Shown: in pieces, positions 51,400 through 55,147 of the stretch
Layout: each line of letters begins with the position of its first letter
Position numbering within the stretch: position 1 is the first letter of the stretch
NCBI RefSeq assembly: GCF_007559275.1
Contig: NZ_VMHK01000006.1
Location: forward strand, 1 to 64,000
DNA: 64,000 bases
Source of the DNA: Bifidobacterium apousia
GTDB taxonomy: Bacteria > Actinomycetota > Actinomycetes > Actinomycetales > Bifidobacteriaceae
Direction of reading: 5' to 3'
The notes under the pieces: model-generated
What the model was told of the DNA's origin: nothing
Seen by the model: only the letters and a program-made list of their open reading frames with translations
Database searches by the model: none
Translations under genes and position numbers: made by a program

Positions 51400-51476
51400 C
51401 GGGCCGTAGCGCAGTTTGGTAGCGCACTTGACTGGGGGTCAAGGGGTCGCGGGTTCAAATCCCGCCGGCCCGACCA
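51400..51476 (+). tRNA. tRNA-Pro (anticodon GGG)
   Basis: A 77-nt tRNA including encoded CCA has acceptor CGGGCCG / CGGCCCG, D arm GCGCAGTTTGGTAGCGC, anticodon arm TTGACTGGGGGTCAA with GGG, and T arm GCGGGTTCAAATCCCGC. Its 3' part is repeated exactly at 55109-55147, which marks it as an integration target. Confidence 0.97.
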
Positions 51477-51478
51477 AA
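51440..51478 (+). repeat. 39-bp direct repeat, left att-like copy (tRNA-Pro 3' end)
   Basis: This copy covers the 3' side of the anticodon stem, the variable loop, T arm, acceptor and CCA of tRNA-Pro. It is identical to 55109-55147 over all 39 bp, with mismatches at the bases just outside. This is the classic target of tyrosine-recombinase elements. Confidence 0.95.
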
Positions 51479-51486
51479 TAGCAACG

Positions 51487-51515
51487 ATTCCAAGGTCTTA
51501 GGCCTTGGAATTATT
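51487..51515 (+). terminator. Stem-loop after tRNA-Pro
   Basis: ATTCCAAGG pairs with CCTTGGAAT across a 7-nt loop, followed by TATTTG. It lies 11 bp after the tRNA and would end its transcript. Confidence 0.7.
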
Positions 51516-51583
51516 TGTAGTTCCAGGCCCTTCGATACCTATTTGCATATATTCGGCGCTTCGCTCTTTCTTCACGTTTCCCT

Positions 51584-51976
51584 TCATTCGCCAACTGTGA
51601 GTTCGTGATCGGCCAGAAGATCCTCGGGGTCGGCGTTGAGCTGAGCGTAAGCCATCATCAGCTTCTTTCTCAGAGTCCCCGGCAACGCGGCCGCGCCTTC
51701 CCTTGATGCTGATGGTCTCTGCGGATGCATTCCTGCGCTGATACAGGCGCAAGTCCTCTACGCCATCCTCCTCCCTCCAATCACGTAGGTCGTGGAGTCA
51801 ACCTGGATCAGTTGACGTTTGTGGCTGGCTTCGGCCTGGCGGACGGTCAGGGTTGAGGTCGCCGGTATCCTCCTGTTCTGTGCAGAACCACAAAGGAGCG
51901 TACCCAGGGCAACTGCGGGAGTCTGGTAGAGGGTCATAATCAAATCCACCGCCCTGGGTCTGGCCCGAGATGTCAT
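51584..51976 (-). pseudogene. Unrecognised gene remnant with an in-frame amber
   Basis: On the minus strand one reading frame runs for 131 codons with a single internal TAG at 51760-51758. The first part contains MTLYQTPAVALG and ends YVIGGRRMA; the second part ends in the plausible acidic tail LLADHELTVGE. I recognise no family. The composition is GC-rich like the chromosome. It is probably the eroded end of a gene brought in with, or cut by, the tRNA-Pro insertion. It could also be chance. Confidence 0.35.
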
Positions 51977-52149
51977 CTCGTTGAGTGCCGTGTACGCCCA
52001 GCCTCAGCTCTGAGCGGCAATCAAGTCTTGAAGTTTTGCGTTCGGCGCCAGCACGATGTAAAGTTAGTGCTGTTAGAAGCCGCCACTGCCTCTACTGCCT
52101 TTCGGGGTGGAATGCATACTATGGCGGTATTTTTTTACCCGGAGGGCAC

Positions 52150-53133: not shown

Positions 53134-53584
53134 AGCCTGCACCCTTTTCACCCAATAATACTGCGACTAGAATAGGCAGGCAGTTTTGGCGTATAGCCTT
53201 ATTCCAGGCTCGTATTGAGGGGCAAGCTGGTTCCGGTCGCGTGGCGACCGGAACCAGTGCGGCAGCAGTATGGTCGAGCTGATCCAGCTCGGCGGGGTTT
53301 CGGGGCGGCGGCCCCGATACAAGCTTTGCTGCCCACCTAAGTCAGATGGCTTTTCACAGAAAGTAGGACATACCCGAACCACTAGATCGCAGGCCACCAC
53401 CATTTGGGCAGCGCACGGTTCCATAGTGTTATCGCTGGCCATGTCTCAATAATGCAAGATTCACCGATAGTAATCTCAAAGAGGATTCCATCAGAACCTC
53501 AACCAGTCATCCAGCTCCTCTGCTCGTTCTCATGTCCGGCTTGTCAAAGCTCTCCCCTGCCAAGCAACCCACCAACCCTGCGAT
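53134..53584. other. Non-coding stretch behind the Abi gene
   Basis: No convincing gene is seen here. The stretch holds the two hairpins noted separately and short chance frames. Base composition drifts from about 60% GC to nearer 50% toward the hydrolase remnant. Confidence 0.5.
53227..53257. other. Perfect 14-bp stem with 3-nt loop
   Basis: CTGGTTCCGGTCGC and GCGACCGGAACCAG are perfect complements with only GTG between. A second GC hairpin (TCGGGGC GGCG GCCCCGA) lies at 53300-53317. There is no T run after either. They lie 94 and 167 bp downstream of the Abi gene and could be RNA structures or termination signals. Confidence 0.55.
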
Positions 53585-53827
53585 GTGCGACCACTTCACC
53601 AGGAGCTGATGGACACGGACTTCACCGACACCCACCACTTCGAGGTGCCGGTCACCTTCTGTGAGGGCAGACAGGACCACCACGTCTCCTCCGCCGTCGC
53701 CCGCGACTGGTACGAGACAATCGACAGCCCCAAAAGCTGGCACTGGTTCGATCGCTCCGGCCACTTCCCCCAATGGGAGGAACCCGACCGCTTCCTGGGA
53801 TGTGTGCTGCAAGACTTAAGTCAATAA
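53585..53827 (+). pseudogene. C-terminal remnant of an alpha/beta hydrolase
   Basis: About 80 codons encode only the last part of an alpha/beta hydrolase: VPVTFCEGRQDHHVSS, which holds the acid-residue region, and WFDRSGHFPQWEEPDRF, which holds the catalytic His motif. The nucleophile half is missing, and upstream sequence in this frame shows no fold. This is a truncated leftover, as expected in an insertion hotspot. Confidence 0.65.
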
Positions 53828-53930
53828 CTGATCGCAGAACCGGAATCCTTTTTTTGCCGAGAAAGCACTTCCTCAATATGCTTTTACTGCTGCTCTGCCA
53901 CAAGCTGTCAGCTACTGTAGACTCGTCTAT

Positions 53931-54875
53931 ATGCTCCAAGTAATTACGAGGAATCCCCTGGAAGATAAGGGCGAAGCACAATACCGTCAGCTGGTGAGAG
54001 TGGGACATAAACTACTGAGTGTCGCGGTGTTCGGGGACACACATGGTAGCGTCCCGAAACTGGTGCTGCTTTCAGGGTGTGGAACCCCTTCCCCTCTGTA
54101 TGATTTCAAGGCTCTCATTACTAGACTGCAAAACTCATACTGTCTGATTGTGGTGGAGAAGTCCGGGTACGGGTTTAGTGACTGGTCTCGGGACCCCAGA
54201 GATATCGACACGATGTTGGATGAGACCAGGGCGGCGCTGCACGGGGCCGGAGTGACTGGGCCCTATGTGCTCCTCCCCCACTCAATGTCTGGGCTTGAAG
54301 CACTTTACTGGACCAAGAAGTACCCTGCCGAGGTGGAGGCCATCATCGGATTGGATATGGCCACGCCACAGGCTTATGAGACGCGCAACCTGGTGCCTCC
54401 CGCCGCAGCCACAGCACTGTTGGGCGCCCTTTGCCGGACAGGACTTCCTCGTCTCCTGCCCAGACTGACCGCGGACCAGTCACCCGCCATCAAAGCAGGA
54501 AATTTGTCTGCTGAAGATAAGGCGGTCTACCGGACCCTCTTCTTCAAGAACTTCATGGATCCAGACATCCAGCGAGAGATCAACACGGTCAACGCCAACG
54601 CCCGCAAGGTTGCGGAAGCTGGATTGCCACAGATCAAGATGCTGCAACTGGTTTCCAACGGGAAAGGAACTGGCTTCAGCAAGGATGAGTGGCGATCCAT
54701 CCAAGAATCCTTCAAAGCGCAGCAAGGTAACTCACAGATACGGTATTTCGATGCCCCTCATTATCTCCACGACTATGTGCCTGAAAAAATGTCCGAGGCC
54801 ATCAGGGATTTTATAAGCGGAAAACCTGACCGATCCAGCAAGGTTATCCGGCACACACTTACATCTCATCCCTGA
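53931..54875 (+). CDS. Alpha/beta hydrolase
   Basis: The 314-residue protein has the alpha/beta hydrolase core: KLVLLSGCGTPSP (oxyanion-side strand), IVVEKSGYGFSD and the nucleophile elbow LLPHSMSGLEAL. A cap region and a C-terminal candidate His (APHYLHDYVPE) follow. The elbow reads PHSMSG, so the first Gly of GxSxG is Pro, a change seen in some subfamilies. No signal peptide is evident, and there is no clear ribosome site. It lies in the tRNA-Pro insertion. The substrate is unknown. Confidence 0.75.
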   Translation: MLQVITRNPLEDKGEAQYRQLVRVGHKLLSVAVFGDTHGSVPKLVLLSGCGTPSPLYDFKALITRLQNSYCLIVVEKSGYGFSDWSRDPRDIDTMLDETRAALHGAGVTGPYVLLPHSMSGLEALYWTKKYPAEVEAIIGLDMATPQAYETRNLVPPAAATALLGALCRTGLPRLLPRLTADQSPAIKAGNLSAEDKAVYRTLFFKNFMDPDIQREINTVNANARKVAEAGLPQIKMLQLVSNGKGTGFSKDEWRSIQESFKAQQGNSQIRYFDAPHYLHDYVPEKMSEAIRDFISGKPDRSSKVIRHTLTSHP

Positions 54876-55108
54876 ATCAGTTCCAAGCAATCTCATTTTA
54901 TGCAGTCAGACGATTTCTGTGCCAATGTCATCAGACACTTCCTTCTGGCTAATCCAATCGGGCACATTTCGGGCACATCGCTACCCATAAGTACCCGTAT
55001 CAGCTTGCATCAGTTCATACTTGGAATCTGCTAGAATTGGCAGTATTCCTTGGATAGTTAGCAGCAGTTAAAGGCAGCTCGCATGTACCAGAACAGCGGC
55101 TTATCTTA

Positions 55109-55147
55109 CAAGGGGTCGCGGGTTCAAATCCCGCCGGCCCGACCAAA
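55109..55147 (+). repeat. 39-bp direct repeat, right att-like copy (tRNA-Pro 3' fragment)
   Basis: This is an exact copy of 51440-51478. The rest of the tRNA is absent, so it is not a functional tRNA gene. It marks the right edge of a 3.67-kb insertion. Immediately beyond it the sequence becomes AT-rich, so it may also be the left edge of a second element. Confidence 0.95.

Follow-up and report, generated by a model that had tools for sequence, protein, structure and literature searches.

Cis-mobilizable elements (CIMEs) are described in the excerpt of PMC5704250 as decayed elements that keep both attachment sites, attL and attR, and elements are described there as piling up in tandem at one target. 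According to the excerpted account in PMC3146451, the ssrA islands of Dehalococcoides are bounded by direct repeats of the 3' end of an RNA gene, occur in tandem, in some cases without an integration module, and show an abrupt change of identity between cargo and integration module. Here we describe a locus of Bifidobacterium apousia that shares features with both. The window is the whole stretch analyzed, 64,000 nucleotides of contig NZ_VMHK01000006.1 (positions 1 to 64,000), and the interval under study (51400–55147) begins with a tRNA-Pro(GGG) gene, ends with a copy of the 3' end of this gene and encloses an Abi_2 abortive infection gene. An earlier note had taken the interval for a 3.67-kb integrase-less insertion, either a satellite mobilized in trans or the residue of a larger element. 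From comparison with related genomes, the interval is very probably a hybrid remnant that combines parts of an old element with parts of a recent one, in a tRNA-Pro(GGG) integration hotspot. Its likeness to CIMEs, as far as the excerpt describes them, lies in att-flanked DNA stripped of integration and transfer genes, in accretion at one target and in frequent decay. Unlike the Dehalococcoides islands of the excerpted account, which involve a serine recombinase and the tmRNA gene in another phylum, this locus involves a family with a tyrosine-type integrase and a tRNA-Pro gene.

The target gene, tRNA-Pro(GGG), lies at 51400–51476 on the forward strand (ARAGORN; Rfam tRNA, 68.3 bits). The first copy of the att core (51440–51478, forward) is the 3' end of the tRNA gene, and the second copy (55109–55147, forward) forms the right boundary. 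The two 39-mers show 0 mismatches, no third copy with up to 3 mismatches was found in the 64-kb window, and 0 copies are expected by chance (100 shuffles). Direct comparison confirmed that the sequences flanking the two copies are dissimilar outside the repeat. The exact repeat of the tRNA-Pro tail claimed in the earlier note, together with the differing bases around it, was thereby reproduced, and the repeat pair at tRNA-Pro(GGG) is real. In the whole genome (G000; 2.06 Mb, 14 contigs, 99.98% complete), a 26-base core occurs at just these two sites when up to 3 mismatches are allowed.

Loci of relatives were fetched via the gene to the left of the tRNA, which encodes a UTP-glucose-1-phosphate uridylyltransferase (PF01704). 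A relative of this protein was encoded by 112 candidates, and the best 80 of the 112 were kept. The closest loci (L012–L022, n = 11) had 82–99% protein identity and came mostly from B. asteroides, B. indicum or close species. Fetched loci carry L numbers and genomes other than our own carry G numbers; the latter include B. asteroides ESL0199 (G007), B. mizhiense S053-2 (G020), B4142 (G025), ESL0200 (G008), sp. 7101 (G003), VRA_9sq_n (G009), B. polysaccharolyticum (G022), B. mellis (G019), B. choladohabitans (G011), B. indicum (G013) and Bombiscardovia coagulans (G012).

Identity to these relatives switches inside the interval. Against G018, identity per 250 bp was 90.0–99.2% over 49.2–52.23 kb and 76.1–82.6% afterwards; against G007:C3, it was 99.6–100% over 52196–55146. 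In a three-way alignment of 51901–53138, the discriminating sites up to 52148 were G018-like in 55 cases and G007-like in 5, whereas after 52148 none was G018-like and 214 were G007-like. These sites place the breakpoint between resident and imported DNA at 52148–52154, at the start codon of Abi_2 (52150) and directly after a stretch that hardly differs between the resident and the imported versions. From 52150 to 55146 the window differs from G007 by 1 mismatch in 2,997 bases, and identity stops at 55146, the last base of the core. Because the backbone of the two genomes is only about 90% identical (82.5–97.5% in thirty-six 1-kb bins, 16–52 kb), the near-identity of the right part points to recent transfer. 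As far as alignment can tell, the interval is a chimera, with an old resident left part and the right part of a recent element, and not one inserted unit. A uniform single insertion was rejected in view of the identity switch. Decay of one element that had its own left end and shrank by internal deletion, i.e. a plain decayed integrative and conjugative element (ICE), integrative and mobilizable element (IME) or prophage, would leave a single identity level; it is largely refuted by the change from G018-like to G007-like sequence at one point. Plain decay is common here, the integrase relatives of G003, G009, G013 and G012:C8 being fragments or stop-bearing, but as an account of this interval we consider it improbable.

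The left part of the interval was found again in relatives. G018 and G020 have the gene order tRNA, ABC-F-like remnant, Abi_2 and backbone, with about 200 bp between Abi_2 and the backbone, and no second repeat was detected in either genome at up to 9 mismatches. Because the left part to about 52,148 is colinear in these two genomes without a second repeat, a single 3.67-kb unit is not supported. Identical gene order lacking the repeat was listed in the earlier note among the observations that would refute its reading, and this is the arrangement found. Next to the tRNA, the window contains the tRNA terminator hairpin (51479–51515, forward; named by eye), similar to one carried at the left ends of elements in an alignment of 18 such ends. 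It is followed at 51516–51600 by a putative eroded left end of the old resident element, in which the intact left arm is absent. The left ends of G006 and G019 retain a degenerate arm, and when 51516–51600 was aligned with them, no shuffle out of 500 was as good; the match to the left end of G008 was weaker, with 14 of 500 shuffles as good. The left repeat was also considered as an intact element end, and this was rejected, since no arm lies within 3 mismatches and an eroded old left end fits better.

The eroded end overlaps the remnant of an ABC-F-like ATPase gene (51587–51838, reverse), which was recovered by blastn in pieces of 78–83% identity and named by eye. The gene is open over 510–526 aa in L012, L015 and L018. 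In G025 the locus extends over two contigs, one with the tRNA and the remnant and the other with the 3' part of Abi_2, an eroded right end and the core. Eroded right ends beyond ABC-F-like gene or Abi_2 sequence were present in G008, G009, G019, G022, G003 and G025, and the stretches fetched from G006, G018 and G020 yielded none. The clade seems to harbour an old resident element consisting of terminator, ABC-F-like gene, Abi_2, right end and core. By alignment, the stretch from 51479 to about 52148 belongs to the clade's resident DNA, with 96–98% identity to the sister genome G018, and resembles the decayed left part of that element.

Judged by its conservation, the right-hand repeat is part of a genuine element terminus of about 200 bp. 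This right end of a tRNA-Pro element family lies at 54947–55146 (forward) and was scored with 210.6 bits by an nhmmer profile built from nine right ends, which match by construction and include the window's own. It contains the arm-like direct repeat GGGCACA-TTTC-GGGCACA (54960–54977, forward; pattern scan), which is the same in the right ends of G002, G007 and G012. In keeping with the general organization of tyrosine integrase systems, the GGGCACA repeats would be arm sites of the integrase. The best-kept right ends share the layout GGGCACATTTCGGGCACA, then about 130 bp, then the core, and the paired GGGCACA arm, the spacing of about 130 bp and the tRNA 3' core are all present in the interval. 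Further and older copies were detected with the profile, e.g. in G019, B. aemilianum (L082) and G025. With a 218-base query whose last part is the right repeat, matches were obtained in 26 of the 27 genus genomes searched, often via the tRNA tail alone; in 11 of the 27, our own among them, the match reached past the core.

The 10 of 26 other genomes in which the terminus before the right copy matches beyond the core argue against an origin of the repeat pair without site-specific recombination, be it through duplication of the tRNA tail (homologous or illegitimate) or through an assembly error. The end of G007 identity at the last base of the core speaks in the same direction. Although no reads are available and the assembly consists of 14 contigs, such an origin is barely credible. 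The footprint of site-specific integration proposed in the earlier note stands for the right end, which is genuine, and is not supported for the single 3.67-kb unit, the left part being resident in G018 and G020. Its alternative suggestion, a residue of a larger element, was correct in substance, as seen in the conserved right terminus and in the near-identity to G007 that ends at the core.

Left ends of the family were recognized in 7 of 23 scanned sequences by a matching arm (up to 3 mismatches) located 52–54 bp past the core, mostly behind a terminator-like hairpin. The family layout at this end is terminator, arm and integrase gene. The window has the terminator; an intact left arm was not found in it at up to 3 mismatches, and there is no integrase. 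In ESL0199 (L137, G007:C1 2679–2820), the left arm ends after about 15 bases. Similar sequence follows the terminator in G001 (by eye), and an insertion sequence may interrupt the ESL0199 arm at the contig end. Searches of 51480–55147 against a plasmid collection and of the right end alone against a phage collection gave no match.

No recombinase or relaxase was detected among the five open reading frames (ORFs) of the interval in a Pfam scan, transfer genes not being otherwise searched for, and a genome-wide six-frame search gave no PF00589 match at the interval. The absence of an integrase or relaxase reported earlier was confirmed by these searches. The hunt through the whole genome for an integrase that uses tRNA-Pro, also proposed earlier, returned only two PF00589 genes in G000, a XerD-like (318 aa) and a XerC-like one (310 aa; both identities by eye), and PF00239 had no match in G000. 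A 118-aa integrase fragment from L014 matched in 10 of 27 genomes (E ≤ 0.001, some matches weak) and gave no match in G000 or G007. In G003, G009, G013, G014 and G012:C10, the tRNA-Pro(GGG) core has an integrase relative at a distance of about 1.1 kb, and the one in G012:C10 is intact (427 aa). In G024 a further relative is located next to tRNA-Pro(TGG), and G002 has a shortened one (216-aa frame) near tRNA-Arg(ACG). An element array in G012:C8 (L138, 2700–16250) begins at an att core outside any tRNA and holds further right-end copies, one of them inverted, plus broken integrase pieces.

These results bear on the proposal that the interval is a compact 3.67-kb satellite that lacks an integrase, inserts in tRNA-Pro and is mobilized in trans by the tyrosine integrase of another element. 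Because the recombinases found in G000 are two of Xer type, with PF00239 unmatched, a trans-mobilized satellite is unlikely; no compatible recombinase was found in the same cell, and no helper beyond the Xer-like genes. The exact 39-bp repeats and the intact right end are consistent with a satellite, and integrase-less elements with two intact ends seem to exist in the family, as judged from a 9.5-kb insertion in G002 that has both arms and no PF00589 match inside. The interval in the window, however, has no intact left arm and combines sequence from two sources, and G018 and G020 carry the left part of the interval but lack the right repeat. Taken with the recombinase searches, we regard a satellite as very improbable. 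The insertion in G002 (L134, 1602–11133), a one-contig genome, is inserted at tRNA-Pro with an arm and a core at each end and carries Abi_2 sequence at its left edge; none of the four PF00589 matches of G002 lies inside it. It is a better candidate for a mobilizable integrase-less element than the interval in the window.

For the hybrid remnant, the simplest reading is that homologous recombination in the stretch shared before Abi_2 joined the left and right parts. Donor DNA may have been imported with the integrated element, or a second integration at the older core may have been followed by deletion between two Abi_2 copies. The left end of the recent element, its arm and any adjacent integrase gene would have been lost or would never have arrived. 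A chimeric origin would explain the missing integrase, the left half of the recent element, which is the integrase side in relatives, being gone. The interval should now be immobile, because its left end is defective and no matching recombinase was found in the genome, and Abi_2 would be retained cargo.

Several points weigh against this hybrid origin. The order of events is a reconstruction, and the junction could be a chimera of the assembly. Five sites left of the breakpoint are G007-like. The ESL0199 element lies over two contigs, and no integrase of the family was found with it; the recent element was possibly integrase-less already. When 55140–62000 was compared with the 27 genomes, non-self matches had 68–78% identity and none began at the core. 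The import route also receives no support from the dip of identity between the window and G018 at 66–79 kb (extended coordinates), where identity was 92.2% (10 bins) compared with 94.9% on the left (23 bins). The same comparison between G018 and G020 gave 92.4% and 94.9%, and a long homologous import to about 79 kb, which the lower identity to G018 at 65–78 kb had seemed to indicate, was dropped in view of this equal dip.

Measured against the excerpted definition of CIMEs (PMC5704250), the interval is free of integration and transfer genes within the reach of the Pfam scan and the PF00589 search. The attL and attR of one element are not both there: the right end is intact, and the left one has another origin and an arm that is absent or eroded. 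The left att context stems from the older eroded element and is without its arm, the right one stems from the recent element, and with att contexts of such separate origin the interval falls outside this definition. It would more closely resemble a product of tandem accretion. A literature search for Bifidobacterium, tRNA-Pro and integrase together gave a sole match, which concerns Propionibacterium. No title on this locus was found among the matches listed for B. asteroides islands and Bifidobacterium ICEs, from which absence from print is not claimed, and the excerpt of PMC4449606 holds nothing on it. We regard the locus as well resolved, yet as a fairly ordinary example of how mobile DNA decays and recombines. 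It offers a base-resolution view of defence-gene shuffling at a tRNA hotspot in bee-gut bifidobacteria, with one boundary set by a site-specific element end and the other by exchange at conserved upstream sequence. It also advises caution in taking a pair of att-like repeats on either side of integrase-free DNA for the two ends of a single element.

The conserved sequence upstream of Abi_2 contains a candidate structured RNA (52069–52141, forward) with a T-run at its 3' end, which was delimited by alignment, RNAalifold and a covariance model. The 73-base stretch is conserved in eight aligned copies. RNAalifold on these copies predicted three helices, in which 98.4% of cells are paired and three pairs carry changes on both sides; all three of these changes stem from one divergent copy, so that covariation is thin. 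By eye, the outer helix shows one more paired change in the hits of G327 and G379. Among 396 genomes of the order, the covariance model had hits in 6, at 8 places in all; 3 of these 8 copies are part of the model itself, and 3 of the 6 genomes come from a different genus of the family. At 7 of the 8 places, Abi_2 sequence was seen no more than about 1.5 kb away, in several as a fragment only; at the eighth (G336), none was found nearby at E 1e-3. Rfam 15 had no match to 52069–52141 at E ≤ 1, and the region around the copies L196 and L197 gave nothing at the Rfam gathering score. A divergent RNA copy with a short match to the Abi_2 N terminus was seen in five genomes (L195, L197, L191, L192 and L196), in three of them on contigs of 5.2–10.5 kb.

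In Clostridioides difficile, AbiF is neutralized by the RNA RCd22 encoded upstream, according to the excerpt of PMC12373285. The likeness to that system lies in a short structured RNA before an Abi_2 protein gene; a difference is that the window RNA lacks an Rfam 15 match at E ≤ 1, and an antitoxin role is here a candidate role only. The RNA is nearly invariant, while identity of the Abi_2 coding sequence falls to 76–83% between resident and imported alleles. Because of this difference, the RNA could serve as a shared handle for swapping Abi_2 alleles or element halves between tRNA-Pro elements, and we tentatively propose it as such and as a new Bifidobacteriaceae-type RNA partner of Abi_2, a doubtful proposal at this stage. 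If true, defence genes would be exchanged beneath one conserved antitoxin-like RNA. For bifidobacteria, the RNA is a small, testable lead towards a control of Abi_2 proteins by RNA.

The imported allele of the Abi_2 (AbiD-type) abortive infection gene occupies 52150–53133 (forward) and is near-identical to G007:C3. It is an open, full-domain gene with strong matches to PF07751 (131.6 bits, cut-off 25.6; E 5.4e-38) and to PADLOC AbiD (E 3.8e-42), which upholds the defence gene assignment made earlier; from its family, it could act in phage defence. After Abi_2, a hairpin formed by GGTTCCGGTCGC and GCGACCGGAACC was seen at 53227–53257 (minus-strand self-match), and a 101-base stretch around it has an 85% match to the opposite strand of G012:C8. 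A short ORF at 53585–53827 (forward) had no Pfam match and may be a hydrolase fragment (resemblance by eye). The ORF at 53931–54875 (forward) is alpha/beta-hydrolase-like: the match on which this earlier assignment would rest is present (Abhydrolase_1, E 4e-4), but it is weak and below the Pfam cut-off. Matches of this ORF to NCBIfam were likewise weak, all far below cut-off, and it had no match to viral contigs.

Further island DNA extends from the element end past the window (55148–64000). In 500-base bins, the GC content was 0.53–0.60 at 51.25–54.5 kb and 0.32–0.44 at 55.25–60 kb; to the left of 51.25 kb it was 55–67%. The backbone returns at 65430–65465 (extended coordinates) in 7 relatives (G006, G008, G011, G018, G019, G020 and G022), and resumption there would make the island about 14 kb long. 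In G007, G010 and G025, the first long match past the island lies at 70.9–72.1 kb. Because resumption differs between these groups (65.4 kb in the 7 relatives), the right edge of the island varies. A second, older right end, from which the AT-rich block would have counted as another element, was sought in this block and not found; the profile has one hit over 49–102 kb besides the tRNA's own core. To the right of the core, in very AT-rich DNA, the window encodes a 640-aa ATPase (55851–57773), whose best PADLOC match is AriAB (E 5.2e-70, residues 217–600) and which we take to be a PARIS-like defence gene.

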